Origin: Variovorax sp. PBL-E5
Lineage (GTDB): Bacteria; Pseudomonadota; Gammaproteobacteria; Burkholderiales; Burkholderiaceae_C
Reading direction: 5' to 3'
Length of the DNA: 64,000 nt
Assembly: GCF_901827185.1 (NCBI RefSeq)
Contig: NZ_LR594672.1
Span: 310,001-374,000, forward strand
A model generated the notes under the pieces. That model was not told where the DNA came from. It saw only the letters and a program-made list of their open reading frames with translations, and made no database searches. Positions 4,445 through 63,105 of this stretch are shown in pieces. The position numbers and the translations under genes are program-made. Each line of letters opens with the position of its first letter. Position 1 is the first letter of the stretch.

Positions 4445-4518
4445 GCCTTCCAGGCTTGCAAAAAGGGTGGATCAAGATTCGATGGAAATGCCGGCTCAGG
4501 GTTGCATGGAAATTAACA

Positions 4519-4982
4519 CGTGCGGTTTGAATGTTCGCGTGGGGGATGTTGTGGAGCGTGTGCACGGTGTGACGGCGTCGCGAGGACTCGCGATGCACGA
4601 GGGGGTGCGTGCGCCGCTGTACGCAAGCTCCTCCGGCAAACTCGTATTAGCGTTTCTCGATGCGAAGGAGCTGGAGGAATACTTGGCGCGCGTCGAGTTG
4701 CGACCGATTGCAAGGCGGTCGGTGAGATCGGTGGGAGAGCTGCATCGGCAGGTGCTGAGTGTGAGGGCGGAGGGGGTGGCGTACTCGCAGGACGAGTTTA
4801 CGAATGGTGTTGTCGGTTTCTCTGCACCGGTATTCAATGTCCATCTCAAAATGATCGCCTGTCTCGGCCTAGCTGTTCCGACAAGCATCTTCGAGCCCAA
4901 GAAGCTAGCGCTGACAAAATTGTTGAAAGCGACGGCGCAAGCGGTGACGGGGCGCATCTCTTCGAGCACCCGCGTTCCTTAG
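4519..4982 (+). pseudogene. IclR-family regulator, C-terminal effector domain only, 5' end removed at the IS21 border
   Basis: Reading in frame from the IS21 right end gives about 154 residues of an IclR effector-binding domain: an HEGVRAPLYASSSGKLVLAF segment, an EGVAYSQDEF segment and a GFSAPVFN segment. The N-terminal winged-helix domain that binds DNA is missing, so this is not a working regulator. The break coincides with the last base of IS copy 1. The gene probably once regulated the neighbouring Bug/DapA genes; this is inference from similar gene sets. Confidence 0.82.
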
Positions 4983-5110
4983 CCTACGTCACCGCGTGTC
5001 TCACGCTTGCATGTCGCAACGCAACTTCAGTGACCTTGCCCCCGAAAAACGTATCCCTTGCTGAGTGTTTGAATACAAGCAAGTGACGTCTCCCCCTTAT
5101 CCGGTCACTT

Positions 5111-7302: not shown

Positions 7303-7810
7303 TGAGCTGGGTGGATTCAAGACGTTCTCCAAACAACGATCCACCCGACTTTAGGCTCTCCGCAATGCGCAGGCCAATACCTTTTCAGGCACGGCGCCAT
7401 ACCGGAGGCCGGCACCCACGGGGACAGTCGTTCCGCCGGAACTACTGAGGTACGCAGGTCTACGTGGCGGACTGAAATCGCTCGACGGCGGCAGCTGGAA
7501 CGGCAGCGGTCGAATGCATCTCGAGACGTGCAGAGCCCCACAGGTTCGAAGATCGGATGACGCCACTGGCTTCGATCCAAGCGCATCCGACCGGGGCGCG
7601 CAGCTGGACTTCACTGCGTCCGGCTGCCTTGAGATTCGGCGCTCAGAGTGGGCTCTCGTGGCGAGAGGGTCGCTCGCCCTCTAAAACAGCGACGCGACCC
7701 ATGCCCTGCCACGCGTGCAGCCCTTCGGGTCCGACGCTCTAGCAGTCGGCCGGCATTGAAAATCTACATTCAATACCGGCGAATGGGGCGTTGAACATAC
7801 GCCGCAGAGG
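7303..7810. other. Intergenic region with a strong inverted repeat
   Basis: About 0.5 kb lies between the Bug gene and the 3' end of ccdR, and no convincing gene was found in either strand. Its main feature is an inverted repeat at 7749-7760 and 7769-7780 (GCCGGCATTGAA / TTCAATACCGGC, one mismatch, 8-base loop). It lies about 30 bases past the ccdR stop and may act as that gene's terminator, although no T run follows. Confidence 0.5.
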
Positions 7811-8779
7811 TCAAATGTTGGCCTTACGACGGCCTCGACTGTCGTGACCGAGCTCGACCAATCGACTTTGCTCCTCGAACGCGTTGTTATTCAGTGCGTT
7901 CAGATTCAAGGCGCGCACCACAGCTAGAAAACCGGAGAGAAGTGGCCTCTGGTCGTTCCTTCGGTAGACGCAGCACAGGCTACTTGTGGGCTCAGGATCA
8001 GTGACTTTGAGAAAAGCAACCCGCGGTAGACGGATATTGACTGTGGATATTGGGACTAGTGCGATGCCTACTCCGCCGGATACTAGAGCGAGGCAAGCCA
8101 TGGGATCTTCCGTTTCCTGAACGATGCGAGGTGTGAACCCCGCCTGATCGCAAAAGAGCATGACCTCATCGGCAAAGCTTGGACGAGACGCCGCAGGGTA
8201 GACGATCATGCACTCATCTCGCAGGGCCGACATGGGCACGACGGTGCGGTTGGCCAATGGGTGCGTCGACGGCACCGCAAGTACCACCGGCTCGCTCACC
8301 ACCACCTCTGATGCGATGTCCGGTTCGTCTCGATAATAGCGGGCAAACCCGATGTCAAGCCACCCATCGCGCAGAGCTCGGATTTGCCGATCCTTCGTCA
8401 TATGGGATAGACGAACTGTGACGCGGGGCTGCGCGTCACGATAAGCACCGATCAGATGAGGGATGGTACCGAAGATCACGGAGCCGTAATAGGCGACTTC
8501 GAGGTGGCCAAAGTCGCCCTTTGCAGCACGACGCGATCTTTCGACAGCGTCACTTGTTATCCGCAGAGCCTTGTTTGCACCCTCCAAAAAGACCTCCCCC
8601 GCTGCGGTCAGCTCGACGCCGGTCGTGGTTCGATCAAATAGCTGAGCACCGACCTGTTCCTCGAGCTGCTTGATGAGGCGCGACAGCGGCGGCTGAGAGA
8701 TATGAAGTCTGAGCGAGGCGCGACGGAAGCTGCGCTCCTCCGCGACGGTCACAAAATAACGAAGGTGGCGTAGCTCCAT
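7811..8779 (-). CDS. ccdR: LysR-family activator of the chlorocatechol operon (ClcR/TfdR/CatR type)
   Basis: This regulator is 322 residues. The N-terminal HTH is clear (MELRHLRYFVTVAEERSFRRAS, then LHISQPPLSRLIKQLEEQVGAQLF, each typical of ClcR, TfdR and CbnR). The effector domain includes a VVLAVPSTHPLA segment and GGVGIALVPIS. Relatives use cis,cis-muconate or chloromuconate as inducer and bind between the divergent genes. It is divergent from the dioxygenase gene with 132 bases between starts. The C terminus (about 30 residues after VVRALN) is longer and more polar than in ClcR. The family and pathway are well supported; the name follows the ccdRCFDE order recalled from chloroaniline plasmids. 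Confidence 0.83.
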   Translation of the reverse strand: MELRHLRYFVTVAEERSFRRASLRLHISQPPLSRLIKQLEEQVGAQLFDRTTTGVELTAAGEVFLEGANKALRITSDAVERSRRAAKGDFGHLEVAYYGSVIFGTIPHLIGAYRDAQPRVTVRLSHMTKDRQIRALRDGWLDIGFARYYRDEPDIASEVVVSEPVVLAVPSTHPLANRTVVPMSALRDECMIVYPAASRPSFADEVMLFCDQAGFTPRIVQETEDPMACLALVSGGVGIALVPISTVNIRLPRVAFLKVTDPEPTSSLCCVYRRNDQRPLLSGFLAVVRALNLNALNNNAFEEQSRLVELGHDSRGRRKANI

Positions 8780-8911
8780 ACCTAATTATGACTTAGTGCT
8801 GCCCTCGCGATACCTTTCTGGTCATCGCGATGACAAAGATGGTATTGGATTGAATCGCCCCTGCCCGGTAGATTCTGCATTCGTTCACCCACTACGACAG
8901 GAGACAAGAAT
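8780..8911. promoter_or_regulatory. Divergent ccdR-ccdC promoter and LysR operator region
   Basis: The region contains a long interrupted palindrome: ATACC at 8810-8814, the perfect 12-base palindrome TCATCGCGATGA at 8822-8833, and GGTAT at 8841-8845. ATAC/GTAT half-sites with T-N11-A spacing are the binding signature of LysR activators of chlorocatechol operons. A ccdC promoter candidate is TTGGAT (from about 8845), 18-base spacer, TAGATT. A GGAGA ribosome site precedes ATG 8912. Confidence 0.6.
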
Positions 8912-9658
8912 ATGGCAAACCGGGCAGAGACAGTGATCGGCGAGATCGTCAAGGCGGTCCGCGAAGTTCTGAAGCGCCACGATGTAACCTTTGAAGAATA
9001 CCGCGCTGGCGTGGGCTTCCTCATGCAGTACGCAAAAGCTCCGGAATACGAAATCCCCTTGGTGTGCGATCTCTGGTTCAACGCAACCATTACGGACAAC
9101 GAGATGAACCACCGGAGGGGCTCCGTGACAAACGTGGAGGGCCCCTATTTTCTAGAGTCCATTCCAACGATCACAGATCGGATCAAGTCACGTGGGGATG
9201 GCGGCGAGGAGTTGATCATTGAGGGGAAGGTCGTTGACTTGGCGGGCAAGCCAATCGAAGGTGCCGAGCTGTTTATCTGGCACTCCGACCACGAAGGGTA
9301 CTACAGCGGATATAGCGAAGAGTTTCCGCCGGATTTCTATCGCGGCAAGAAGATCATCGACTCGACCGGGGCTTTCAACATTCGTACCGTGCTGCCAGTG
9401 CCTTACATGATTCCCCACGAGGGCCCCAGCGGCAAGATGCTGGAGCTGATGGGTCGCCATCCATGGCGACCCGCGCACGTGCACTTCAAGATCCGCGCGC
9501 AGGGCTTTTTGGAGCATACAACGCAGGCCTACTTCGCGGATGAGAAGTGGGTCGACAGTGACTGCGTCGAGGCTGTGCGCCCCGCCTTGATTCACAAGCT
9601 GCAAGAACGGGGGGGCGTCAAGGTCCTCAAGAAGGATTTCGTTCTCGATCCGGTCTGA
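8912..9658 (+). CDS. ccdC: Chlorocatechol 1,2-dioxygenase (intradiol ring cleavage)
   Basis: The enzyme opens catechol or chlorocatechol between the hydroxyls to give a cis,cis-muconate, using non-haem Fe(III). The 248-residue length fits TfdC/ClcA rather than the longer CatA. The N-terminal helical dimer domain (about 1-75) is followed by the intradiol core. Iron ligands are visible as the Tyr in NVEGPYFLES-like and DHEGYYSGY-type segments and the two His in RPAHVHFKIRAQGF. ELFIWHSDHEGYYSGY is the family signature. The start has a GGAGA site. It is the first gene of the divergent operon. Distinguishing chlorocatechol from hydroxyquinol or catechol preference is inference from length and gene set. 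Confidence 0.87.
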   Translation: MANRAETVIGEIVKAVREVLKRHDVTFEEYRAGVGFLMQYAKAPEYEIPLVCDLWFNATITDNEMNHRRGSVTNVEGPYFLESIPTITDRIKSRGDGGEELIIEGKVVDLAGKPIEGAELFIWHSDHEGYYSGYSEEFPPDFYRGKKIIDSTGAFNIRTVLPVPYMIPHEGPSGKMLELMGRHPWRPAHVHFKIRAQGFLEHTTQAYFADEKWVDSDCVEAVRPALIHKLQERGGVKVLKKDFVLDPV

Positions 9659-9777
9659 ACTTTTGCGCATCACTGAATCCCGACGCGCAAGACTGGCAGC
9701 AGGCTTGCCGCGTTTGCAAAAAGCTCTGGTGACGCGATCTGGCCCTTGGCCTGATCGCCTAATTGAGGAACGTAGAG

Positions 9778-10061
9778 ATGGATATCAAGCCCGTGACCTT
9801 CCCAACACATGATGGGACCCGTGTGCCTTTGGACGTATACCGTTCCCAAGAGGTTTACGAACTCGAACTACAACGCATCTATCGCGGGCCAACCTGGAGT
9901 TTCGTGGCCTTGGAGGCCGAGATCCCGCAGCCCGGAGATTTCAAGTCCACGTTCGTGGGCGACACGCCGGTAGTTGTAACGCGCACAAAAGAGGGAAAGC
10001 TCAGCGTCTGGGTCAACCGCTGCGCGCACCGCGGCGCGGCGGTCTGTCGCAAGGCGCGTGG
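9778..10061 (+). pseudogene. Rieske dioxygenase large subunit, N-terminal fragment
   Basis: About 94 codons of a ring-hydroxylating oxygenase alpha subunit remain: EVYELELQRIYRGPTWSFVA, DTPVVVTRTKEGKLSVWVNR and the first half of the Rieske cluster motif CAHRGAAVCRKARGTKG (C-x-H). The second half (C-x2-H) and the whole catalytic domain are absent. Around base 10060 the sequence changes to the end of a ferredoxin reductase gene in a different frame. The start ATG 9778 has only a weak site. The fragment cannot work; it marks a deleted dioxygenase operon. Confidence 0.8.
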
Positions 10062-10379
10062 AACCAAGGGATTGCGGCGGCCAGCGCGGCCTTGGGCTTT
10101 CCCGTTTGCTATGACCCGTTGCCATGGTTTTGGTCCGATCAGTTCACGGTCAACATCCAGATTTATGGTGTGCCCAAGTCGCATCACCGTGTCGCCATTC
10201 GCCGACTTCTCGCGACGCAGACGTCGCTGTATTTCTACCTTGAACAAGACCGGCTGAAGGCCGTTGTTGGGGTGAACGCACCGAGAGAGCTTGCAATGGC
10301 GCGCCGCCTCATTGAGAAGCAGACGGCGGTCATGGCCGAAGTGCTGGAGGATCCAGATCAATCGATTCCACGCGCGTGA
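10062..10379 (+). pseudogene. Dioxygenase ferredoxin reductase (BphA4-like), C-terminal fragment
   Basis: In frame with the stop at 10379 one reads about 105 residues of the C-terminal domain of a Rieske-type ferredoxin-NAD reductase: NQGIAAASAALG, then PVCYDPLPWFWSDQF, a hallmark of BphA4/ThcD-type reductases, and AVVGVNAPRELAMARRLI. The FAD and NAD domains are missing. It is joined out of frame to the oxygenase fragment, so an internal deletion removed the end of the oxygenase gene, everything between, and most of the reductase gene. Confidence 0.78.
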
Positions 10380-10431
10380 TTCCGGTCTACAAGTTATCAG
10401 CGATGCAGCCGTTTTTTAAGGAGATATCTCA

Positions 10432-10767
10432 ATGTATGTAGCGATTTTTTTTCAAGACTTGCCGGGCACAGTTGCGAAACGCCAAGCGGTCGTGTCCGAG
10501 CACCGCAAATACATGGAAGGCCATGCAGCCAAAGTGCTGGCGGCGGGCGCGACCTTTACTGACGACGGAAAATCCGTTAGAGGTGGGAGCTACATCGTCG
10601 AGGTGAGCGACCTAGAGGAGGCTCGTCAGTTCGTAGAGAACGATCCGTTCACGCGAGCCGGGCTGCGTTCCTTCGTAACCATACAACCCTGGATCAAAGC
10701 CGTGTTCGCCGGGAAGTTCAACATACCAACCGACGACAGCCCGCTTTATGCGAATTCTGTCGCCTGA
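10432..10767 (+). CDS. YciI-like / muconolactone isomerase-like small protein
   Basis: A 111-residue protein with a ferredoxin-like alpha/beta fold expected from its N terminus MYVAIFFQDLPGTVAKRQAV, a SEHRKYMEGHAAKVLAAGATF segment with the His typical of YciI proteins, and SYIVEVSDLEEARQFVENDPF. It has a strong AAGGAGATATCTCA ribosome site. It lies between the dioxygenase and maleylacetate reductase genes, 8 bases before the latter. YciI and muconolactone isomerase share a fold, and ClcF of Rhodococcus is a muconolactone-isomerase relative that dehalogenates 5-chloromuconolactone. A similar role here is possible but unproven; most ccd/tfd/clc operons lack this gene. Confidence 0.72.
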   Translation: MYVAIFFQDLPGTVAKRQAVVSEHRKYMEGHAAKVLAAGATFTDDGKSVRGGSYIVEVSDLEEARQFVENDPFTRAGLRSFVTIQPWIKAVFAGKFNIPTDDSPLYANSVA

Positions 10768-10775
10768 GCGAGTTG

Positions 10776-11846
10776 ATGATGAAAGACTTTCTCTACCAGG
10801 GCATGCCAAGTCGCGTCAGATTTGGCCGAGGTACTGTCTCCGAGGTCGGCGACGAAGTCGAACGGCTGGGGTGCAAACGGATCTTGATTGTGGCAAGCGC
10901 TCCGGAACAGGCCGAACAGATCCGATCCCTCGTCGGCCCTGTTTGCGTCGGCGTCTTCGCTGGGGCCGTAATGCACACGCCCGTCGAAGTGACGGAGACC
11001 GCTCTTGCACAGGTGCGGAGCTTGCGTGTGGATGGAGTAGTGGCATTGGGCGGGGGATCGGCGATCGGGCTTTCCAAAGCTATCGCGCTTCGTACTGATC
11101 TGCCACAGCTAGTGATTCCAACCACCTATGCCGGATCCGAGATGACTCCCATTCTTGGTCAAAGCGAGCGCGGCATCAAGACTACACAGAGGACGCCCAA
11201 AGTACTGCCGGAAACAGTTATCTACGACGTAGAACTGACGTTCACACTCCCTCGAATGCTGTCTGTGTCGAGCGGCATCAACGCCATGGCTCACGCAGTA
11301 GAGGCGCTTTACGCGAGTGACGCTAACCCGATAACCGACACGTTCGCTGAACTAGGGATTGCTGCCCTATACAGAAGCCTCCCGAAACTCTGCGAGGACC
11401 TGGCTGCTCCCGAGGTGCGGACCGAGGCACTGTATGGCTCATGGTTGAGCGCCATTTGCTTGGCCTCGACGTCGATGGGTCTTCACCACAAGCTTTGCCA
11501 CACGCTTGGAGGCGCTCTAAACCTACCCCACGCCGAGACTCACGCTGTAGTGCTATCGCACGCCATCGCATACAACGCTCCCAAGATTCCTGAGGCAATG
11601 GTCGTAGTGGGGCGAGCGATGGGTGGAGGAGATCCCGCTGGGCTGATCTATGACATTGCAAAGGACAGCGGCGTGCCGGTGACTTTGCGAGACCTGGGGA
11701 TGAAAGAGAAGGACATCGACGTCGTAACCGCCGCAGTGATGGCTAAGCCCTACCCGAATCCCAAGCCCCTCGAGTCCCAACTCGTTAGGCGCTTGATTGC
11801 GAATGCATGGGCTGGGATCAGGCCAGATCATTCGACGTACCTGTAG
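10776..11846 (+). CDS. ccdF: Maleylacetate reductase
   Basis: It reduces maleylacetate to 3-oxoadipate with NAD(P)H, the last step of the modified ortho pathway. The protein is about 356 residues, an iron-type alcohol dehydrogenase family member. Seen are the nucleotide-binding VVALGGGSAIGLSKAIALRT, the PTTYAGSEMTPI substrate/cofactor segment, NAMAHAVEALYA, and the HHKLCHTLGGALNLPHAETH region with the metal-site histidines of the family. Start at ATG 10776 or 10779; the site is weak. It follows the YciI gene closely and is 25 bases ahead of ccdD. Confidence 0.9.
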   Translation: MMKDFLYQGMPSRVRFGRGTVSEVGDEVERLGCKRILIVASAPEQAEQIRSLVGPVCVGVFAGAVMHTPVEVTETALAQVRSLRVDGVVALGGGSAIGLSKAIALRTDLPQLVIPTTYAGSEMTPILGQSERGIKTTQRTPKVLPETVIYDVELTFTLPRMLSVSSGINAMAHAVEALYASDANPITDTFAELGIAALYRSLPKLCEDLAAPEVRTEALYGSWLSAICLASTSMGLHHKLCHTLGGALNLPHAETHAVVLSHAIAYNAPKIPEAMVVVGRAMGGGDPAGLIYDIAKDSGVPVTLRDLGMKEKDIDVVTAAVMAKPYPNPKPLESQLVRRLIANAWAGIRPDHSTYL

Positions 11847-15905: not shown

Positions 15906-17462
15906 GTGATTGACGTGGCAACATTAAGTGTCATCAGACGCTGGGCCCTGCGCGAGCAGTTGTCCATCCGAGAGATCGCCCGGCGCACCGGCCTGTCTCG
16001 CAACACCATCAAGAAGTACCTGCGCGCGGGTGTGGCGGAGCCGCACTACCCTCGGCGCATCAGTCCGAGCCAGCTCGATCCCTACGCCGAGAAGCTCTCA
16101 GGCTGGCTCAAGAGCGAAGCGGGCAAGTCGCGCAAGCAGCGGCGCACCGTGAAGCAACTCCACGCCGACCTGTCCGCCCTGGGCTACCCAGGCTCATACG
16201 GCCGGGTAGCCGCCTTCGCCCGAGTCTGGCAGCAGCAACGTCAGGAAGCGCAGCAGACCACCGGCCGAGGCACCTTCGTGCCGCTGGCCTTCGGTCCTGG
16301 CGAAGCGTTCCAATTCGACTGGAGCGAAGACTGGGCCGTCATCGGCGGCGAGCGCACCAAGCTGCAGGTAGCCCACTTCAAGCTCAGCCACAGTCGCGCC
16401 TTCACCGTGCGGGCTTATCCGCTGCAAACCCACGAGATGCTGTTCGATGCGCACAACCATGCCTTCGCGGTGTTGGGTGGCATTCCCCGGCGCGGTATCT
16501 ACGACAACATGCGCACCGCCGTGGACAAGGTGCGCCGGGGCAAGGAGCGCGACGTCAACGCCCGTTTCAGCGCCATGGTCAGCCACTACCTGTTCGAGGC
16601 CGAGTTCTGCAATCCGGCCTCGGGCTGGGAGAAAGGGCAGGTGGAGAAGAACGTGCGTGATGCGCGTCACCGGCTGTGGCAACCCGTGCCGGCGTTTCCA
16701 ACCCTGGCCGAACTCAACGAGTGGCTGGAGAACCGCTGCAAGACCTTGTGGCGCGAGATCGTCCACGGCAAGCTGCCAGGCACGGTGGCCGATGTCTGGG
16801 AGCAGGAGCGGCCCACCCTGATGCCGATGCCGCGCCCCTTCGACGGCTTCGTCGAACACACCAAGCGGGTCTCGCCCACCTGCCTGGTGCACTTCGAGCG
16901 CAACCGCTACAGCGTGCCGGCCTCCTACGCCAACCGGCCGGTGAGTCTGCGGGTCTACGCCGAGCGGCTGGTGGTCGCCGCCGAAGGTCAGATCTTGTGC
17001 GAGCACACGCGCCTCATCGACCGGCGCCACGACGTCGGTGGTCGGACCGTCTACGACTGGCGTCACTACCTGGCGGTGCTGCAGCGCAAGCCCGGTGCCT
17101 TGCGCAACGGTGCTCCGTTCGCCGAACTGCCGCCAGCCTTCAAACGGCTGCAGGCCATGTTGCTGCGCCAATCGGGTGGCGACCGGGAGATGGTGGAGAT
17201 CCTGGCCCTGGTTCTGCACCACGATGAACAGGCCGTGCTGGCCGCCGTGGAGCTGGCCTTGGAAGCTGGCGTGCCGACCAAGACCCATGTGCTGAACGTG
17301 CTGCATCGTTTGCTGGAAGGGGAGCCGGCGCCTGCGGCGCCGGTGACGGCACCACAGGCCCTGCGCTTGGTCAACGAACCTCAAGCCAACGTGCTGCGCT
17401 ACGACCAGTTGCGCCGCCCCGCGGCTGCCCGCACAGCCCAGGAGGTGCGTCATGCGTCATGA
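15906..17462 (+). CDS. istA: IS21-family transposase IstA (copy 2)
   Basis: A 518-residue DDE transposase identical in sequence to the protein from 2104-3660: N-terminal HTH ([19 protein letters not shown]), first Asp in FQFDWSED, second in [11 protein letters not shown], Glu in [10 protein letters not shown]. Both terminal repeats are present around this copy, so it is the one most likely to be active. Confidence 0.96.
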
Positions 17463-18246
17463 CCCTGCCAGCGGCGCCATCGTGATCATGCTGCGAGAGC
17501 TCAAGATGTATGGCATGGCCCAGGCCGTGGCCGAGCTGACCGCACAAGGGGCACCGGCGTTCGAGGCGGCACAACCCATCCTGGCCCAACTGCTCAAGGC
17601 GGAAACCGCCGAGCGCGAGGTGCGCTCCGTGGCCTACCAATTGAAGGTGGCCCGTTTCCCTGTGTACCGGGACTTGGCCGGTTTCGACTTCGCCCACAGC
17701 GAAGTCAATGAGGCGCTGGCGCGGCAGTTGCACCGTTGCGAGTTTCTGGAGGAGGCCAACAATGTGGTGTTGGTCGGGGGCCCGGGCACTGGTAAGACCC
17801 ACCTGGCCACGGCGCTCGGTGTGCAGGCCATCGAGCATCATCACCGGCGAGTCCGGTTCTTCTCCACGGTCGAACTGGTCAATGCGCTGGAGGTCGAGAA
17901 GGCGCAGGGCAAGTCGGGACAGATCGCCACCCGGCTCATGTACGCCGATCTGGTGATCCTCGACGAACTGGGTTATCTGCCATTCAGCGCGTCCGGTGGG
18001 GCCTTGCTGTTCCACCTGCTGTCCAAGCTTTACGAACGCACCAGCGTCGTGATCACGACCAACCTGAGCTTCAGCGAATGGGCGTCGGTGTTCGGTGATG
18101 CGAAGATGACGACGGCGCTGTTGGACCGGCTTACGCACCACTGCCATATCCTGGAAACTGGCAACGACAGCTTCCGATTCAAGAACAGCTCGGCGCTGCC
18201 GGCACAATCCAAGAAGGAGAAAACCAAGAACTTATCCACACCGTGA
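17452..18246 (+). CDS. istB: IS21-family helper ATPase IstB (copy 2)
   Basis: A 264-residue AAA+ helper identical to the protein from 3650-4444, with Walker [11 protein letters not shown] and Walker [12 protein letters not shown]. It overlaps istA by 11 bases. The stop is followed after 74 bases by the right end of the element. Confidence 0.96.
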
Positions 18247-55076: not shown

Positions 55077-55245
55077 TGGGCGGTCGGCGCGGAATTGGCG
55101 CTTATTTTAAGTAATTTGGGGCGCGGATTTTAGCAAAGATTGTTTTAGGCCACCAGCATTATATTAGACTGGTTTAGGCCCGCGAGAAGCGAAACGCCCT
55201 TCGAAGACCAAGAGGTCCGCGAAGGGCGTGCGAAAAAGGAGTTCT
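55077..55245 (-). promoter_or_regulatory. AT-rich promoter region of the 54012 operon and hairpin after 55246
   Basis: On the minus strand TATAAT (55163-55158) and TTAAAATAA (about 55108) are promoter-like. Two copies of GGCCTAAA(A)C flank the first. At 55194-55203 and 55220-55229 the inverted repeat ACGCCCTTCG / CGAAGGGCGT lies 17 bases after the 55246 gene stop and probably ends that transcript. Confidence 0.55.
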
Positions 55246-55527
55246 CTATGACTCGGCGGCGTCCATGAACTTGGTAGTTGCCCACAAGCCGCGCTTGAAC
55301 TGCTTGATTTCGCCTTTGGCTACCAATTCCCGGCGAACTGCGTCAAACACTCGACTGGCGATGATGGCATGGTTGGCGGGGAGGGGGTTCGTCCGTTGGA
55401 GCCATAGGCCGCCGTGCTTCAGCAGGTGCTGTCGCACTTCATCTGGTGTAGATGTCGCGTTCCCGAGGAGGCGCTCTCGAGCGAGGTCGAAGAGCTGCTC
55501 GGGGATTGGAGTAGTGCCGAATTTCAT
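55246..55527 (-). CDS. Small hypothetical protein with winged-helix-like composition (93 residues)
   Basis: From ATG 55527 (MKFGTTPIPEQLFDLARERL). Segments TPDEVRQHLLKHG and HAIIASRVFDAVRRELVAKG followed by EIKQFKRGLWATTKF look like a small winged helix with a basic wing, so DNA binding is possible. A TTAAACTCC box lies about 25 bases upstream. Not assigned to a family. Confidence 0.6.
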   Translation of the reverse strand: MKFGTTPIPEQLFDLARERLLGNATSTPDEVRQHLLKHGGLWLQRTNPLPANHAIIASRVFDAVRRELVAKGEIKQFKRGLWATTKFMDAAES

Positions 55528-55690
55528 TGGTCGAAGGTATTGGTCCGGAGTTTAAGGGAGGCCTGTACCCGGTATAGGAAACGGTCGCAGGCCCGGGAGC
55601 TCGACCGTGCCGTCAAAGCTTGAATAGGCCGGCCTTGGCCGCGGGGGCCGCGCGCTCACCCTGCATCGGGCGAAGCGCCTCGCGCCAGGC

Positions 55691-56011
55691 CTAAAAGTCC
55701 AATCCGTTCGTCCCGAACACGTTCCCGTGAACGGCGAGCCCAGAGCCATGGTCCATTGGCAAACCGTTTGACGGAGTGACGGAGCCGAACGGGTCGGCGA
55801 CGTACCAATCATCCCGGAGTCGACCGCGGCACGGGAGTTCGCAGAACGACAGCTGCGGCTGACACGAAAAAGCCTGCTCGCATCGCTGCAGCAGGCCTTC
55901 GGTAGTAGGGTGACAGAAATCGCAGCGCCTAAATTTCGAAGTGTGAGTTAGAAGGAAGGCGGCCACATGGCTGTCGAAGATACGACTGGAATTCCGGGGC
56001 CTAAGTTTCAA
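55691..56011 (-). CDS. Hypothetical Cys-rich protein (up to 106 residues)
   Basis: An open frame from TTG 56011 with RCDFCHPTTEGLLQRCEQAF and FCELPCRGRLRDDWYVADPF, giving three Cys pairs and a WYVADPFGS segment. A perfect TATAAT on the minus strand (56063-56058) lies about 45 bases upstream. The start codon is uncertain. Not recognised; coding nature is likely but not sure. Confidence 0.45.
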   Translation of the reverse strand: MKLRPRNSSRIFDSHVAAFLLTHTSKFRRCDFCHPTTEGLLQRCEQAFSCQPQLSFCELPCRGRLRDDWYVADPFGSVTPSNGLPMDHGSGLAVHGNVFGTNGLDF

Positions 56012-56112
56012 CCAAAAGAATTTAGAAGGAAGGCCATCAGATAGCAGTCACACAAACATTATAGCATGAAGTTTTTATACTTTTGAGCCTGTTGCTTGAA
56101 ATAGTTTAAGGC

Positions 56113-56442
56113 TCACCTTGGATAGTCGTGCACAAGGCGACCGATTTCGCCAACCGTCATGGTGCTGAGCCGCTGCATGCTCACGTATTCGCCATGGAGG
56201 ACCTCCTGCTTGGCCGCTTCGATGGCACGGTTGCGCGCATCGCCAATCACTTGGCGACGCTCGTCGTTCGACTGCGATGCGGCCGCGCGTAAGGACCGGT
56301 GGGAGTCGATGAGCTGCTGCAGGGTCAAGGCGCCTGTCAGGTCCATCTCCTCGCCGTAGCGCCGCAGCTGCTCCCAAACTTCTTCGATTAGCACGGTAGT
56401 TCTCTCTTGCTCGAGGGCGGCATGCTTCCACGCCGCCCTCAT
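56113..56442 (-). CDS. Helical protein encoded just after the TerD-domain gene (109 residues)
   Basis: It starts at ATG 56442, 4 bases after the stop of the TerD-domain gene, so they form one operon. The protein is almost all helix with high Glu/Arg/Gln (HAALEQERTTVLIEEVWEQL, ARNRAIEAAKQEVLHGEYVS). It may be a small partner or adaptor of the large protein. No family recognised. Confidence 0.62.
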   Translation of the reverse strand: MRAAWKHAALEQERTTVLIEEVWEQLRRYGEEMDLTGALTLQQLIDSHRSLRAAASQSNDERRQVIGDARNRAIEAAKQEVLHGEYVSMQRLSTMTVGEIGRLVHDYPR

Positions 56443-56446
56443 TTGT

Positions 56447-58675
56447 TTACAGCCAGTCCGCCACGACCTCGTCGAGCTCATTGAGCTTGCGCTCGTCCAG
56501 GACCAGGTCGGCCTCTTCGCGCGTCGAGACAAGCTCCCCGCGCGCCTGACCATGGAGTTCGAAGAGCTCCTTGAGGCTCACCCGCTGGTCCTGCATGGCG
56601 ATGACCGCCTTCAGCTGCTTCACCGCCCGGCCGCCGGCCGACTCCACGGTGTTGTACATGTTGCGTCCCTTGAGGGACAAGTCCGCCCACACCACCTGGC
56701 AGGTCGCCAGGTCAACGACCATCGGCACCATGATGACCATCGCTCCGTTCACGGAAAACTTGTGCTTCACAGTCTTCGGCTCGAAGTTGGCACCCTTGGT
56801 GGCATCCTCACGCTCCATGAACCCGGCGAAGCACGGGAAGGTGTCGAAGCTCTGCCCCGTGTACGAGAACACCGTAACCGCGGCGTAGCGCACGCCTTGC
56901 ACCTTGAGCGCCGCCAGGTCCAGGTCAATGAACTCGCAAGCCCCTTCCGGCCCGGAACCGGAGCGCAGGTCACCGGAGTGGGCGCTACGGCCGTACGACC
57001 GCACGTTGGTCCAGGACAGGTGGTCCTTCTTGTTCCAGTGCTCATCGTAGAGCGCGCAGGACAGGTCGACGTCGATGTGCGGGCCCGCCCAGTGCATGAA
57101 CAGGCGCACGATTCCCTTGGACGACTCCAGTGCGACACGCGAGCCGCGGGTCATCGGGGACATGCCGGACGACGCGCTGCGCTGGGAAAACGGCACCAGC
57201 ACTGCTTCCAGAGCCTCGTCCACGAAAACCTTCCCGAGCGCCTTGCGCTCAGCAAAGCGACGACGCAGCTCCTTGTCGACAAGGTCCAGCACGGCGAAGC
57301 GCGCCTCCGCGGCCAACGGCTTGCGTCCATCCCCATCGACGATGTACATCTTGGCCACGGAGCCCTTCGGCATGAAGGCCCGGAACTCCGACTTGGCCGC
57401 ACGCTGGCGGAAGTGCGCCAGGAGCGTCAACAGGATGGTCGTGCTGACGGACTCCACGCGGAGTGCGCCAAGCACCTCCTCGAACGGCAGGCCGCGGCTG
57501 AGCAGCGCGTCAAGCTTGCGAGCAAGCTCACCCGGGCGCTGCGCCAGCGTTTCGAGCAGGGCGAAGCGCGCCTCCTGCTTGTACAGGTTCGAGTGCACGA
57601 GCAGCTTCTCCACCCGCGACGCGTGAGTCGTGATGTCGTCCTCGCGATTGCGCAGGGCGTCAAAGCACGCCCATGCCTTCGGGAACCGCGCCTTGAACTG
57701 GCCGACGTGCAGCACTTCACCCAGGCGCAGCCAGCGGCCGCGGTAGCCGAGCATCTCCTCGAGCACGTACGCATCGGCTTGCTTGAGCGCATTGAACGCT
57801 GCCATCAAGAACTGGCGCTGACCGTTGTTCAGCTTGAAGCGCGTCACTTCCTTGAGCGACACGTCGCCCCCGCACAGCGCGACCGCCAGGCGGAGCACGT
57901 CCGTCGGGGTCTTCAGAAAGCGCAGCAGGTGGGCACGCTCCACACCCTGCTTCAGCAGGCCCGCGGTCACGAAGGTCGCGGTCTCCTTGAATGCCATTTC
58001 ATCCGGCAACCGGCGTACGACGGCGTCAGCCTGCAGCCCGATGACCGCCGACACGAAGCCTTTGTACGACTCGGAAAGGGACGTGCGCGACCGTACGACG
58101 TTGTCGAACGCCTGGAAAACGTGTTCTTCGGTAGCCAGGCCGAGGAGCTTCAGCGGGGTGAGCTCGTCCAGCGGCACGACGTTCGTCTGCTCGACGTTGA
58201 TTTCCGGCACCTGATGCTGGCAAATCGGGCACGCACCGAACTTCTCCAGGTCGAACAGCCGGTGGTTCACCAGGTGACCGCAAGAGAGCGCCGTGTACTG
58301 GCCACCCAGAATCGGGCCCAGGGCCGACTCGGCGTAGCCCATGAACCGACGGACGAAGTAGTCGAACGTGTCCGGCACGTCATGCGGGAAGTTCTTGAAG
58401 AGCGGGCGGTACTTCACCTGCGCGCCGACTGCCTCGCGGAGGATAGCCACCAGGCGACCATGGAACGCCTTCAGGCCTGCGACATCAAGCTTGCGCAGCA
58501 GTGCGCACAGCTCACCGTCCAGGGTGAAGCCCAGCTGGCCCACATCTGCCAGCACTGCCGGGATGAGCGTAACCGCGCTGCCGTTCAGAGCGGCAGCATC
58601 GACAGACAGGAACACCTTGCGCTTCTCGCGCAGCAGGAAGGATTGGACGACAGTGTTGTTGGCAAAGGAATTCAT
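56447..58675 (-). CDS. Large TerD-domain protein with RING-like Cys/His cluster
   Basis: A 742-residue cytoplasmic protein from ATG 58675 (in-frame starts up to 58705 exist). Residues 132-152 hold a RING/U-box-like cluster: C132-x-H134 in ALSCGHLVNHRLFDLEKFG and C149-x2-C152 in ACPICQHQVPE. Residues about 160-500 are a helical region. Residues about 540-700 match a TerD (tellurite-resistance) calcium-binding-type domain: HIDVDLSCALYDEHWNKKDH, SGDLRSGSGPEGACEFIDLD, VRYAAVTVFSYTGQSF. TerD proteins act in membrane-linked stress and phage-related responses together with TerC, TerB and others, but none of these are in the window. The gene is divergent from the DUF6283-rtcR operon. The architecture seems uncommon. 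Confidence 0.75.
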   Translation of the reverse strand: MNSFANNTVVQSFLLREKRKVFLSVDAAALNGSAVTLIPAVLADVGQLGFTLDGELCALLRKLDVAGLKAFHGRLVAILREAVGAQVKYRPLFKNFPHDVPDTFDYFVRRFMGYAESALGPILGGQYTALSCGHLVNHRLFDLEKFGACPICQHQVPEINVEQTNVVPLDELTPLKLLGLATEEHVFQAFDNVVRSRTSLSESYKGFVSAVIGLQADAVVRRLPDEMAFKETATFVTAGLLKQGVERAHLLRFLKTPTDVLRLAVALCGGDVSLKEVTRFKLNNGQRQFLMAAFNALKQADAYVLEEMLGYRGRWLRLGEVLHVGQFKARFPKAWACFDALRNREDDITTHASRVEKLLVHSNLYKQEARFALLETLAQRPGELARKLDALLSRGLPFEEVLGALRVESVSTTILLTLLAHFRQRAAKSEFRAFMPKGSVAKMYIVDGDGRKPLAAEARFAVLDLVDKELRRRFAERKALGKVFVDEALEAVLVPFSQRSASSGMSPMTRGSRVALESSKGIVRLFMHWAGPHIDVDLSCALYDEHWNKKDHLSWTNVRSYGRSAHSGDLRSGSGPEGACEFIDLDLAALKVQGVRYAAVTVFSYTGQSFDTFPCFAGFMEREDATKGANFEPKTVKHKFSVNGAMVIMVPMVVDLATCQVVWADLSLKGRNMYNTVESAGGRAVKQLKAVIAMQDQRVSLKELFELHGQARGELVSTREEADLVLDERKLNELDEVVADWL

Positions 58676-58892
58676 AGCTTGCTCGGTGTGTTGTGAAGGC
58701 TGCACTGAGGGCTGCCCTATATCCGATTCATTGCAATGCCCGTGCCAGCACGCCCAGCGAACGGCCTAAACAACACTAAGCCTTTGATTTCATTGCGCTT
58801 TCCCTATAAAACCTTAAATCTAAAATCCTTGTTGAAAATTATCCACTAGGATATAATCTATTCATCGCAGACTGAACACCTATCCAAAAAAC
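58676..58892. promoter_or_regulatory. Divergent AT-rich control region between the TerD gene and the rtcR operon
   Basis: This is one of the most AT-rich parts of the window. For the plus strand, TTGTTG (58829-58834), a 17-base spacer and TATAAT (58852-58857) form a good sigma-70-type promoter 35 bases before ATG 58893. Other plus-strand boxes are CTATAAAAC at 58804 and GGCCTAAAC at 58764. No sigma-54 (GG-N10-GC) box was found by eye. Confidence 0.6.
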
Positions 58893-59243
58893 ATGGCCTG
58901 GAAGCTAGCTCGGACCCGCCAATGCGCAAAGTGCCCATGGCGCACTGACGTTGACCCGCGCGACATCGCCAACGGCTACTCGGAGGAACGGCACCGCGCC
59001 CTGGCGAGAACCATCGCCAAGCCGGCCGATTTCACGAGCCTGGATGCGCCGCTGCACATGATGGCATGCCATGAGACGGAGAAGGCGCACTGCATCGGGT
59101 GGCTCGCAAACCAGGTCGGCCCTGGCAACAACATCCCGCTGCGCATGCGGCTGCGAGATTGCGAGAACGCCCACCGCATACAGACCGTAGGTGAGCAGCA
59201 CCTCACCTTCGACGACACCCTCCCGAAAGACACGCCCAAGTGA
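58893..59243 (+). CDS. DUF6283-family zinc-binding-type protein
   Basis: A 116-residue protein. It has the family landmarks CAKCPWRTDVDPRDIANGYS, ARTIAKP, MMACHETEKAHCIGWLANQV and GPGNNIPLRMRL. The Cys/His set (C-x2-C, C-H, C) is a likely metal site. Members are found mostly in actinobacterial phages and plasmids; function unknown. It is the first gene of a four-gene operon that ends with rtcR, and its stop overlaps the next start. Confidence 0.75.
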   Translation: MAWKLARTRQCAKCPWRTDVDPRDIANGYSEERHRALARTIAKPADFTSLDAPLHMMACHETEKAHCIGWLANQVGPGNNIPLRMRLRDCENAHRIQTVGEQHLTFDDTLPKDTPK

Positions 59244-59566
59244 AAACGCTCCGGTTCTACGGCCAGTTCGACGACCAGTTCAACCTGGATATCAACGGAC
59301 GCTATGTCGCGCAGGTCAACGCAAGCCAGCGGCTCGCGCACTACCGGATTGAGTCGCCCGAGGGCGAGTTCATTGTGCACGCCACCTTTGCCCCCGAGCA
59401 GCTGCCCAGCGATACATGGGCCATTGGCGTCGCAGCCGGCTCGGCTGGCAAGCGCCTGCCTGCTTGGCCGATGCGATTTGAGCAGGATGCTTCCCTCGTC
59501 ATCGAGGCCCCCGATGAAGCTGTTGTCATCCACGGCGACCACGCGCTCTTCGGGCGCTACGTCTAA
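59240..59566 (+). CDS. Hypothetical protein in the rtcR operon (108 residues)
   Basis: A GTG start overlapping the DUF6283 stop (GTGA). The protein MKTLRFYGQFDDQFNLDING reads as an all-beta small domain (RYVAQVNASQRLAHYRIESP, EFIVHATFAPEQLPSDTWAI). Not recognised. Its coupling to the upstream gene suggests they work together. Confidence 0.66.
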   Translation: MKTLRFYGQFDDQFNLDINGRYVAQVNASQRLAHYRIESPEGEFIVHATFAPEQLPSDTWAIGVAAGSAGKRLPAWPMRFEQDASLVIEAPDEAVVIHGDHALFGRYV

Positions 59567-59583
59567 ACGATTTCTCCGCCCCC

Positions 59584-59997
59584 ATGACCAAGAAGTTCAT
59601 CGTCACCTACCGCCCGCCGGAGCACGCCGGCAAGCTCATCGCCGTCGAGCATGAGTCGGCCGAAACGCTACTTGAAACGCTCCTGCCGGCAGCCGTCTCC
59701 GCCCTCCAAACGGACAACGGTCCGTTCGAACTGTTTGGAAAGCGGTTCGACGTGGAGGCCTTGATGGTCTGGGTGCCTGACGACCCAGTCCGCCACGCCT
59801 ACGACGAGCGCAGGGCGAAGCTGGAAGGGCGGCCGGCACCGGTGCGGTACGAGGACAGCCGCGGCCTGATGCGCCGCTACGTGGCTCCGAAAGTGGAGGC
59901 ACTCGACGACTGGTTCGACCGAATCGCCAAGGCGGGCGGCGCCCGTAGCTACGAGCTCGAGCGGGAAAACTCGGAACTCATGCGGGCGGAGGCCTGA
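59584..59997 (+). CDS. Hypothetical protein in the rtcR operon (137 residues)
   Basis: It starts at ATG 59584, 17 bases after the preceding stop, and ends 3 bases before rtcR. The sequence (MTKKFIVTYRPPEHAGKLIA ... LETLLPAAVSALQTDNGPFE) is alpha/beta with a helical, charged C terminus (DDWFDRIAKAGGARSYELER). No domain recognised. Tight spacing indicates co-expression with rtcR. Confidence 0.66.
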   Translation: MTKKFIVTYRPPEHAGKLIAVEHESAETLLETLLPAAVSALQTDNGPFELFGKRFDVEALMVWVPDDPVRHAYDERRAKLEGRPAPVRYEDSRGLMRRYVAPKVEALDDWFDRIAKAGGARSYELERENSELMRAEA

Positions 59998-60000
59998 GCC

Positions 60001-61653
60001 ATGAGCAGAACCGTTGTCCTTGGCTTTCTCGGCAGTCAGCTCGACTCCGGCCTCACGGCCAAGCGGTGGGAGCGCTGGCGCCCAACCGTGAGCCTGGCCG
60101 CGCAAGGTGAGATTCCCGTCGACCGCATTGAGCTGTTCACGTTCAAGGCCGCTGAATCCGCCTTGGCCGAAGTCGTCAAATCCGACATGGAGACCCTCAG
60201 CCCGGACCTCCAGGTGACCGTGCACGACCTCGCCATCAACGACCCGTGGAACTTCCCGTCCGTCTACGCCGCGCTGCACGAGTTTGCCCGGGGCTATGAG
60301 TTCCAGGAGGACACCAACTACTACGTCCACCTGAGCACAGGCACGCACGTGGCGCAAATCTGCCTCTTCTTGCTGACAGAGGCGCGCTACTTCCCGGGCA
60401 AGCTCCTCGGCACCCGAAAGGGCACCTCTGACGGCAAGCCGTGGGAAGGCCGGGCGGAGGTCATCGACCTCGACCTGTCGACCTACGACCAGCTCTCCTC
60501 GCGCTTCCGACGAGAGCAGGACGACGACCTGTCCCTTCTCAAAGGCGGCATCGTCACGCGCAACGCTGCTTTCAACCAACTGATTGCTCGCATCGAGAAG
60601 GTGAGCCTGCGGTCGACCGCGCCCATTCTGCTGACAGGGCCGACCGGTGCCGGCAAGAGCCAGCTGGCAGCTCGCATCCACGCGCTGCGTGCCCGCAAGC
60701 GCATGGCCCAGGGTGCCTTCGTGGAGGTGAACTGCGCGACCCTGCGTGGCGAGAACGCGATGAGCACGCTCTTTGGCCACAAGAAGGGGGCTTACACCGG
60801 AGCGACGTCCGACCGCGCTGGCCTTTTGCGCTCGGCCGACGGGGGCATCCTCTTCCTCGACGAGATTGGGGAGCTGGCGCTCGATGAGCAAGCCATGCTG
60901 CTGCGCGCGCTCGAGCACAAGCGATTCATGCCCCTGGGCGCCGACACGGAGGTCGAGAGCCGGTTTCAGCTGCTCGCAGGTACCAACAAGGACCTGGCCG
61001 TCGAGGTGTCGAAGGGCACGTTCCGCGCCGACCTGCTTGCTCGCATCAACATGTGGACGTTTGAGCTTCCGGGCCTTGCTGCACGGCCGGAGGATATCGA
61101 GCCGAACCTGGACTTCGAGCTTGAGTGCGCAACCGAAGAGCTTGGCACCAAGGTCTCCATGAACAGCGAGGCGCGCGAGGCCTATCTCGACTTTGCCGGC
61201 AAGGCACCCTGGCCTGGTAACTTCCGGGACTTCAAGGCTTCAATCGCCCGGATGGCCACCCTTTGCACCGGCGGCCGGATTCGTCTGAGCGACGTCACGG
61301 ACGAATGCGCCGTCCTCGCTCGGCAGAACCGGTTTTCCGAACCTGCGCGAACCCGGCCGCACCCGGCGGGCGACTTGGGCGATAGCCTCACCGGCGCGGT
61401 GGACCGGGTGCTGGGGTCGCGCGCGAGCCAATACGACCCCTTCGACCTGGCACAGCTCGAGACAGTGCTGCGGGCGGTTGCCACCGCCCGCAGTCTTGCC
61501 GAAGCGGGCCGTCATCTGTTCTCGGTCTCTCGACAAGGCAAGGCGAAGAGCAACGACTCGGACCGGCTTAAAAAGTACCTGGCCCGGTTTGCCCTTGAGT
61601 TTCTTGAAATCAAGCAGCAGCTGGGCGGTAGTCCGGGGGCGCTGACGGCGTAA
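60001..61653 (+). CDS. rtcR: RtcR-family sigma-54-dependent activator with N-terminal CARF domain
   Basis: RtcR activates sigma-54 promoters of rtcBA RNA-repair genes in E. coli. This protein has 550 residues, near the usual length. The N-terminal 180 residues are the RtcR/CARF sensor (VVLGFLGSQLDSGLTAKRWE RWRP pattern, NDPWNFPSVYAALHEFARGY, YYVHLSTGTHVAQICLFLLT). The AAA+ domain has Walker A TGPTGAGKSQL, the sigma-54 contact loop as KKGAYTGA, Walker B GGILFLDEIGEL and an Arg-rich sensor region. The C terminus carries a short helical DNA-binding part. CARF domains sense oligonucleotide or RNA-end ligands. No rtcA/rtcB lies in the window; it is the last gene of an operon of small unknown genes. 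Confidence 0.9.
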   Translation: MSRTVVLGFLGSQLDSGLTAKRWERWRPTVSLAAQGEIPVDRIELFTFKAAESALAEVVKSDMETLSPDLQVTVHDLAINDPWNFPSVYAALHEFARGYEFQEDTNYYVHLSTGTHVAQICLFLLTEARYFPGKLLGTRKGTSDGKPWEGRAEVIDLDLSTYDQLSSRFRREQDDDLSLLKGGIVTRNAAFNQLIARIEKVSLRSTAPILLTGPTGAGKSQLAARIHALRARKRMAQGAFVEVNCATLRGENAMSTLFGHKKGAYTGATSDRAGLLRSADGGILFLDEIGELALDEQAMLLRALEHKRFMPLGADTEVESRFQLLAGTNKDLAVEVSKGTFRADLLARINMWTFELPGLAARPEDIEPNLDFELECATEELGTKVSMNSEAREAYLDFAGKAPWPGNFRDFKASIARMATLCTGGRIRLSDVTDECAVLARQNRFSEPARTRPHPAGDLGDSLTGAVDRVLGSRASQYDPFDLAQLETVLRAVATARSLAEAGRHLFSVSRQGKAKSNDSDRLKKYLARFALEFLEIKQQLGGSPGALTA

Positions 61654-61810
61654 CCAAATCCCGCGCCGCTCGCAACGCGGCTCCCTCAGTTCGACGGTGC
61701 CCTGGGGGGCGCAAGGCGACGGCGAACGCACATGCACGGCGCAACCGTGCCATTGTTCGCAAAGTCCCAACAAATGTGTCGACATGCAACAGCATTTAAA
61801 ATAGACTGGC

Positions 61811-61842
61811 GTTCTCCCTTCGTCCTAAAACGAAGGGAGAAC
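61811..61842 (+). promoter_or_regulatory. Perfect 13-bp inverted repeat upstream of the 61876 gene
   Basis: GTTCTCCCTTCGT (61811-61823) and ACGAAGGGAGAAC (61830-61842) pair perfectly with a 6-base loop and no T run. TAAAAT at about 61797 could be a -10 box, putting the repeat at the very start of the transcript. It could be an RNA stabiliser, a protein-binding site or the end of the rtcR transcript. Confidence 0.5.
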
Positions 61843-61875
61843 ATAAACACAAATGATTCGAAGGACAGTCATCTA

Positions 61876-62748
61876 ATGCGTTTCCGTATCGCGCTCTGCG
61901 CAGGATTTCTGATGGCCTTGGCTGGGTGCCAAGCGAAGCTGGACGCATCCAGCCCCGAGGCGCTCGATGCCTCCATCCCGAAAGTCGTGGACTCTGTGCC
62001 GGAATCCCAGCGGGCTGAACTCTCCGGGTACATCAAGAATTTGGTTCGTCCCGTCGGTGCCGCCCTGATAGTGGGCACTGCCGACAAGAACGTCGGAAAT
62101 GCGATGTTCAATGAGGCCGCAAAGCATCTGGACGGACTCACGGCTGAGCAGATTTTCACAATGGCGCGCGAGTCCGAGGTTGCTGCCAAGAAGGCGCAGC
62201 AGGAGCGCGCGAGGTCCGATGCAGCAAGGCTGGTGAAGGAGGCTCAGGACAAGGTCGACCTTTTGCTTGCGGGCCAGGCTGCCTTCACCAAGGTGACCGT
62301 CACGCACGCAAAGCAGCCCGTTCAACAAGCCGGTGCCGGAATGGGCTCCTTCGTGGTTTTTGACGTGCTCAACGGGAGCGACTCGGCGGTGGAACGCGCC
62401 ACCTGGGAAGTGACGTACGTCCGGACCACCGCCCAGCGTGTAGCCGGGGGCAAGTTCGTGCGGCAGTCCGCCCTCAACGAAGCGGGCTTTGCTGGAGTAC
62501 CTGCAGGCCAAACGGTTCAGGTCCGACTGCCGGAATCCGCCGGGGCCTTCGGTGGCGAGGCCAAGGACTACCTGGAGACCGAAATCACATCGGTGAAGCT
62601 GATGAACTTCCAATCGGCAAATGGCGCCTTCGCGTCGGCCGACAATGAGCAACTCATCGGGCCAGCTCAGGCACGGCTGAAGGAAGCGCAGGAGACACAG
62701 GCCCGCGTCCTGCGCGACATCGACGAAGAGAACTCCATCAAGGGCTGA
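61876..62748 (+). CDS. DUF6694-like lipoprotein
   Basis: A 290-residue protein. Signal peptide MRFRIALCAGFLMALAGCQA with lipobox LAGC. The next segment KLDASSPEALDASIPKVVDS is the hallmark of DUF6694 lipoproteins (known from Enterobacteria to Burkholderia). A helical region (AKKAQQERARSDAARLVKEA) and a beta-sandwich-like C-terminal part (FVVFDVLNGSDSAVERATWE) follow. Function unknown. The start has no obvious SD sequence. Confidence 0.74.
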   Translation: MRFRIALCAGFLMALAGCQAKLDASSPEALDASIPKVVDSVPESQRAELSGYIKNLVRPVGAALIVGTADKNVGNAMFNEAAKHLDGLTAEQIFTMARESEVAAKKAQQERARSDAARLVKEAQDKVDLLLAGQAAFTKVTVTHAKQPVQQAGAGMGSFVVFDVLNGSDSAVERATWEVTYVRTTAQRVAGGKFVRQSALNEAGFAGVPAGQTVQVRLPESAGAFGGEAKDYLETEITSVKLMNFQSANGAFASADNEQLIGPAQARLKEAQETQARVLRDIDEENSIKG

Positions 62749-62847
62749 AAGAGCGACCGGGCGCTCACCGCGCGACGTCTCGTGCGTCGCACCGGCCGCG
62801 CGAGAGCCCCTGCGCCTGCAGTCGCGACCACGCACACTCCAAGAGCT

Positions 62848-63105
62848 ATGAACCTCGTATCCCTCTCCGAAGCCAAGCCAGAAATCAAATGCGCAGAGCT
62901 GGAGCTTGCCCCCGACACCAAAGTGATGTTCTCGTACGGGCGTCCGGCGGCGGCACTGCTCCCAGACCGTGGCTACGTCCGTGTCGACCAGGTCATCTCC
63001 AAGACGACCGAGCGGCATATCGCCGAATGGGTCGGCGCCGAGGCATCCGAGCAGGTCTCACAGGACTTCTTGGATGGTCTCCTTGCCGGTACGGCGAGGT
63101 GCTGA
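62848..63105 (+). CDS. Small phage/plasmid-type protein (85 residues)
   Basis: From ATG 62848. The core VMFSYGRPAAALLPDRGYVR followed by VDQVISKTTERHIAEWVG resembles a small domain found in phage and plasmid hypothetical proteins (the SYxTPVAAxxPGRGYxR...TSxHIxxW pattern, probably DUF8033-like). No enzymatic motif. It overlaps nothing and is followed 4 bases later by the next gene, so the two are likely co-transcribed. Confidence 0.62.
   Translation: MNLVSLSEAKPEIKCAELELAPDTKVMFSYGRPAAALLPDRGYVRVDQVISKTTERHIAEWVGAEASEQVSQDFLDGLLAGTARC

Follow-up and report, generated by a model that had tools for sequence, protein, structure and literature searches.

RtcR is known mainly as the switch of the RtcBA enzymes; what, then, does it control in a genome that does not code for them? 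The question is raised by a locus of six genes on a plasmid of ~0.8 Mb in Variovorax sp. PBL-E5. It lies in the window, that is the whole stretch of 64,000 nucleotides analysed (G000:C2:310001-374000; its contig has 801,539 bases, and the genome, of 7.09 Mb, is listed as 100% complete). The six genes were confirmed as real and their arrangement in two divergent halves, described in a first-pass annotation made from the letters alone, stands. One half codes for a large protein with a predicted TerD domain (the TerD protein) and a small partner, the other for a DUF6283 protein, proteins of 108 and 137 residues and RtcR, all on the + strand with one 4-base overlap followed by gaps of 17 and 3 nt (Table 1). 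The answer favoured here, at a probability of about 0.58, is that RtcR governs a module responding to RNA damage in which the large TerD protein, not RtcBA, is the effector. Read in this way, the locus is a variant of the RtcR-controlled RNA-damage module that was not previously described.

An RtcR regulator without RtcBA

The RtcR of the locus scores 710.4 bits over residues 2–539 against the equivalog model NF038308 (cut-off 650), 224 bits against PF06956 and 738 bits against the PADLOC model of RtcR, the sole strong PADLOC match. When aligned with 11 other RtcR proteins its nucleotide-binding and helix-turn-helix (HTH) regions look intact, with no gaps in their motifs; GAYTGA takes the place of GAFTGA, which is also the case in the Xanthomonas and Bosea proteins among the 11. 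Note that the protein deviates at 19 of the 192 columns invariant in the 11 others, the corresponding values being 11 of 184 for the Citrobacter RtcR and 0 to 6 for the other ten; the sensor of the window RtcR may have changed. RpoN is present as one copy in the host genome. A gene coding for a DarT-type ADP-ribosyltransferase is found immediately 3' of rtcR on the Bosea plasmid (L146:8610-9134).

Neither PF01139 (RtcB) nor PF01137 (RtcA) has a match in the host genome. In a control set of 14 genomes, E. coli among them, the two models are positive in 9 and 5, respectively. The Rtc RNA repair system, composed of the RtcB ligase and the RtcA cyclase under RtcR, is not found here, and the lack of rtcBA first reported for the stretch extends to the whole genome. 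In E. coli the CARF domain is bound by RtcA and RtcB, both of which are required for activation (PMC9650030; published work is cited here from excerpts). In Salmonella the truA signal requires RtcA and the ruvA signal does not (PMC7790460). An RtcR that works without RtcAB fits a ruvA-type signal. The ligand proposed in the excerpts of the Salmonella study (PMC7790460) is tRNA halves with a 2',3'-cyclic phosphate end, and the cyclic-oligonucleotide signal suggested in the first-pass annotation finds no support here. The absence of rtcBA also speaks for a reading in which the two halves are chance neighbours, RtcR being an orphan relic and the TerD gene being under its own, RtcR-independent control; against this, the ATPase and HTH regions of RtcR align with their motifs free of gaps.

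The promoter region facing the TerD gene

The intergenic gap of 217 bp (GC 44% vs. 62%) carries a -24/-12 element that matches exactly the sigma54 consensus TGGCACGNNNNTTGCW and faces the TerD gene. Exact copies of the consensus number 5 in the 7,086,410 bases of the genome (2 for the reversed control pattern), and the scan for GG-N10-GC-type promoters that had been suggested yields this site as the only exact one on the contig. Three sites of the window lie within one mismatch (1.17 expected; at least three in 15 of 100 shuffles), of which the gap site, with a score of 19.6, is the only exact one.

An IHF-type site and a candidate RtcR enhancer palindrome lie upstream of this element. The layout was compared, using the IHF consensus, in 12 rtcR promoter regions (window, G427, G188, G676, G934, Xanthomonas sacchari, Citrobacter freundii, Bosea, Shinella, Rhizobium rhizogenes, E. 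coli K-12 and Burkholderia multivorans). An exact IHF match starting at -44 to -38 is found in four of them (window, G427, G676, Citrobacter) and a match within one mismatch in six (the same four, G188 and E. coli), which shuffles of the window region reach at 0.04% and 0.8%, respectively; the Xanthomonas region has an exact match at -31. Eight regions have TATCC half-sites close to the rtcR end (G427, G188, G676 and Xanthomonas lack them), whereas only two have the full palindrome, the window and G934, where it precedes rtcB. The plasmid of strain WDL1 differs at 13 of the 217 positions of the gap, none of them in 58676–58755 or in the palindrome arms: the sigma54 element is unchanged, the IHF site is changed at its first base, and one difference falls in an outer TATCC.

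In sequence, the gap has the parts of an RtcR-type sigma54 promoter (-24/-12 element, IHF site near -40, upstream enhancer, position divergent from the rtcR unit), the IHF site and the half-sites being themselves common to just 6/12 and 8/12 regions. The exact sigma54 element, the IHF site and the palindrome follow the plan of rtc promoters; on this ground the gap resembles a target promoter that RtcR would bind, directed at the TerD gene, and RtcR very probably controls this gene. The same set argues against chance neighbours, although the promoter could be used by another sigma54 activator. No sigma70 promoter was found for the + operon by the rule of the tool used; a TATAAT (58852–58857) with a poor -35 element was spotted by eye.

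A second rtc-terD linkage and other settings of the family

A second, differently arranged linkage is found in genome G427, of the same family. There rtcR (L050:1712-3319, - strand) is divergent from a run of five + strand genes coding for a TROVE/Ro60-vWA protein (3519–5093), a 256-residue protein, RtcB (6535–7752), an RtcA open reading frame (7753–8868) and a TerD-family protein (9002–11080), with a sigma54 site of score 18.4 upstream of the TROVE gene. The TerD-family protein is 32% identical to that of the window over 693 residues, has no Pfam match, RING included, and its gene is present in 1 of 20 genomes of the genus. The first proposal that the two halves form one regulated unit is supported by the exact sigma54 promoter, the rtc-like layout and this operon ending in a TerD-family gene.

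Eight genomes (G000, G188, G427, G656, G676, G934, G1010, G1076) yielded full-length members with usable flanks; the samples searched, which overlap, comprised 399 (order), 399 (family), 398 (phylum) and 369 (class) genomes. Short TerD-only matches were not counted as members, and G1166, where the gene is at a contig edge, was left out of the adjacency count. The rtcR gene is beside the TerD-family gene in two of the eight and is present somewhere in the genome in five. Over the 700 nt upstream of the gene, sense strand, the top sigma54 scores of the six stand-alone loci are 4.0–10.6, vs. 19.6 in the window. Outside Variovorax, 27 plasmid records have a match and none of the four loci examined carries rtcR; at the one annotated NF041916 member examined, of Streptomyces halstedii, rtcR is missing among 17 annotated features. 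The flank survey left out the window's own or near-identical copies (L001-L004, L015, L021) and the TerD queries. On Vibrio vulnificus plasmid L017 a TerD-family gene has an RNA ligase family gene at a distance of ~3 kb and a potassium channel gene at 2 kb.

Many large viral contigs (IMG/VR, L059-L138) also have a gene of the family. Relatives are encoded at 83 viral loci, of which 80 were kept, on contigs of up to 578 kb, and no RtcR, RtcB, RtcA or TROVE was detected in the flanking sequence available for the 80 (tblastn, 1e-5). The survey of neighbouring genes covered 91 loci (80 viral, 11 cellular or plasmid), of which 71 are distinct; Pfam served to check one or two members per gene group. 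The groups assigned to tRNA CCA-adding enzyme, Thg1 and Rnl1-type ligase have members in the flanks of 7/71, 7/71 and 6/71 loci. The CCA group alone is nearer than random genes (median 1.2 kb, 0.024); as one of 11 groups tested it loses significance on correction, and two nuclease-like groups are nearer still. Phage neighbours were set aside as evidence of RNA repair. A cREC_REC (cyclic-phosphate receiver) gene is found directly 3' of the TerD-family gene in L069 and L075.

The TerD family is, as far as these sequences tell, used in several settings of which RtcR control is one, because rtcR is absent beside the gene in most of the genomes, viral loci and plasmids examined. The refutation named in the first-pass annotation was that most genomes would have homologous TerD genes but no rtcR operon beside them: literally, this is the case in 6/8 genomes, 80/80 viral loci and 4/4 plasmid loci examined. 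The link at this locus is not overturned, since the promoter evidence comes from the locus itself and the family evidently has other uses as well. Adjacency in only 2/8 genomes favours chance neighbours, against which stands the G427 linkage; that reading is judged highly improbable.

The TerD protein and its predicted likeness to Ro60

The TerD protein scores 477.5 bits over residues 11–725 against NF041916 (MXAN_6230/SCO0854 RING family), below the cut-off of 600, and ranks as a distant relative of this family. At least 205 proteins match it at E ≤ 0.001, itself counted, the nearest relatives (P0002-P0024) being 46–69% identical. Its structure model (predicted local distance difference test, pLDDT, 88.6) has a predicted TerD fold, whose acidic residues D535, D537, D569 and E581 are invariant across 46 sequences, and R, K or H account for 11 of the 26 invariant residues of the helical body. 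Foldseek alone gave no match at E ≤ 0.001 for the protein of the window and six for its relative P0055, all of them TerD or TerD-like chains; 9a6r SCP2 and 2qng are presumed to be TerD-like, in part from their rank in the Foldseek list. No PDB chain matches the family profile by sequence.

The predicted fold and the invariant acidic residues agree with a reading in which RtcR drives the TerD protein and the latter functions as part of a Ter-type response (sensing of a metal or nucleotide derivative, membrane or phage exclusion), as do the presence of the family in large viral contigs and the discussion of Ter systems as phage exclusion in passages of PMC7824862. However, PF02342 (TerD) has no match in the protein at E ≤ 0.1 and its best match in the genome, on another protein, reaches 12.2 bits, none being above the cut-off of 25.3. 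The ten genes scanned around the locus hold no TerC-, TerB- or TelA-type family (TerC and TerB were searched there, not genome-wide), so the grouping of several Ter genes that defines a terZABCDEF system is not seen, and the long matches of the body are RNA-binding proteins. The Ter-type reading is unlikely and the membrane response of that type, put forward at first, is rated low.

The only structural matches of more than 300 residues among those listed are Ro60 proteins (304–330 residues matched), and the matched range of the model runs from the body through a beta domain to the C-terminal helices; the model may correspond to the HEAT-ring fold with an inserted beta domain of Ro60/TROVE. The protein has no match to PF05731 (TROVE) and hhalign gives 0.2%; TROVE models are insensitive, since the TROVE protein of G427 itself scores just 32 bits. 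Evidence of homology to Ro60 was sought at the sequence level and not obtained, no similarity being detectable. As for RNA partners, the window has no tRNA and no Rfam family at gathering score, a Y-RNA/tRNA-like search of 55200–59000 gave one chance-level match (E 3.8), and the 573-nt stretch 3' of the small partner was dismissed as a structured RNA (it folds no better than shuffles, z -1.14). A Ro60-like RNA role for the TerD effector, as suggested by the model, has about an even chance. More tentatively, and with the odds somewhat against it, MXAN_6230/SCO0854-type TerD proteins would be a second Ro60 class, that is RNA-binding rings in which a metal-binding TerD domain replaces vWA, which bacteria can wire to RNA damage via RtcR and sigma54, with or without RtcBA, and which large phages carry widely to keep or repair RNA. 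If true, a branch of the Ter families that is so far unexplained would have its first concrete function.

In the proposed module, the CARF domain of RtcR would bind broken RNA (tRNA halves with a 2',3'-cyclic phosphate in the published system), freeing the AAA+ domain. Bending by IHF would bring RtcR, bound at the palindrome near the DUF6283 start, into contact with RNA polymerase-sigma54 at the left-facing promoter, leading to production of the TerD protein and perhaps of the small partner. The TerD protein would then act like Ro60/Rsr, its helical ring binding damaged or misfolded RNA, with a putative metal-binding TerD domain in the place of the Ro60 vWA and an added zinc site.

Plasmid distribution and the other genes

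Over positions 56000–63000 the window shares 100% identity with plasmids of Variovorax sp. SRS16 and PBL-H6 and 98.3% with that of WDL1; all three come from linuron-contaminated soil. Conservation of the six-gene block in other genomes, proposed as a check, was not borne out: among 72,556 plasmid records most of the block is held only by three near-identical Variovorax plasmids, and a scan of genome contigs, which reaches close relatives only, returned WDL1 again. In the same records the small partner matches only on these three Variovorax plasmids and the DUF6283 protein in 46 records. The 137-residue protein has a single other homologue at E ≤ 0.001 in ~5.8 billion proteins. The segment 56001–56500 differs by 13% in DNA from the WDL1 allele vs. 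~1% on both sides, and of the 94 codons of the small partner 19 have non-synonymous and 14 synonymous differences and 1 is gapped; the pattern suggests either an allele swap or fast evolution.

This variable partner and the plasmid location would suit an abortive or toxic effector driven by RtcR, as in the RtcR-linked CoCoNuT defence operons, where RtcR homologues are described beside CoCoNuT RNases (excerpts of PMC11090510). Such an effector is very unlikely here: neither the TerD protein nor the small proteins match a nuclease or toxin family, and PADLOC is strong for RtcR alone.

Elsewhere in the window, pairs of open reading frames of equal lengths (518 and 264 aa) at 2104–4444 and 15906–18246 resemble two copies of one insertion element, and a DUF6694 lipoprotein gene ~220 nt 3' of rtcR on the same strand (61876–62748) is probably a separate unit. 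An smpB gene lies ~13 kb from rtcR on the SRS16 plasmid, outside the window (L002:30668-31001); tmRNA is a reported target of rtc-inducing stress (excerpts of PMC9650030).

Table 1. Features of the divergent TerD/rtcR locus (window positions).
Feature	Position	Strand	Basis or remark
Small partner, 93 aa, no assigned family	56113..56394 (start as annotated)	-	annotation
TerD protein, 742 aa: half-RING / helical body / TerD; proposed effector	56447..58675	-	NF041916
TerD domain, residues 505-687	56615..57163	-	predicted fold
Helical body, residues 160-500, possibly Ro60/TROVE-like by fold	57176..58198	-	predicted fold, invariant residues
Candidate half-RING zinc site, C132, H134, C149, C152	58220..58282	-	Prok-RING_4 28.3 bits
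Sigma54 -24/-12 promoter TGGCACGGGCATTGCA	58732..58747 (58747-58732)	-	56 nt to ATG of TerD protein
IHF-type site AATCAAAGGCTTA, candidate	58777..58789	-	starts 42 nt before -24 element
Candidate RtcR enhancer palindrome TATCC-N4-GGATA	58840..58853	.	sequence layout
Further TATCC	58881-58885		changed in WDL1
DUF6283 protein, 116 aa	58893..59243	+	PF19800 39 bits
108-aa protein	59240..59566	+	two weak matches outside Variovorax; phrog_10666 E 1.5e-4
137-aa protein, near-orphan	59584..59997	+	one homologue (57%) besides itself
RtcR, 550 aa, CARF - AAA+ (sigma54 activator) - HTH	60001..61653	+	NF038308, PADLOC

Comparison with known systems

An apparently intact RtcR without RtcBA, whose probable target by way of an exact sigma54 promoter is a TerD protein, is a sensor parted from its usual repair enzymes, and it would tie an unexplained TerD family to RNA damage, not to tellurite. 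Both questions can be tested in the soil bacterium or in E. coli K-12, and an RNA role, if true, would bear on phage biology, since many large viral contigs carry the family. No link of TerD proteins to RtcR or Ro60 was found in the titles, abstract beginnings or passages covered (including PMC7159879, PMC7824862, PMC11090510, PMC4012209 and PMC12363816); most subscription literature, e.g., Burroughs and Aravind 2016, which might hold one, was outside this scope.

The CoCoNuT loci (excerpts of PMC11090510) also pair an RtcR-type activator with non-repair effectors but, unlike them, the window locus has no McrBC-type or HEPN family in the genes scanned. The match to the MXAN_6230/SCO0854 family is nearly end to end, although under the family cut-off, and the S. 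halstedii member has no rtcR nearby. On Citrobacter freundii plasmid L145 rtcR is likewise divergent from non-RtcBA effectors, no rtcB or rtcA being annotated in the 15.5 kb shown; these effectors are a slipin and a nucleotidyltransferase, not a TerD protein. Ro60/Rsr (TROVE) shares with the TerD protein a predicted likeness at the level of the fold and, in G427, the setting of the RtcR operon, but carries vWA where the latter has TerD and has no detectable sequence similarity to it. A further close system is the rtcR/rsr-yrlBA-rtcBA operon of Salmonella (rtcBA in E. coli). It differs in that the window genome lacks RtcB and RtcA, that the effector is a TerD protein, and that rtcR is the last gene of the DUF6283-108-137 operon and not directly divergent. 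The two have in common the regulator family and the gene plan, in which a sigma54 promoter precedes the divergent effector gene and the IHF-type site keeps the same register, and in G427 the TerD-family gene sits in the rtc operon itself.
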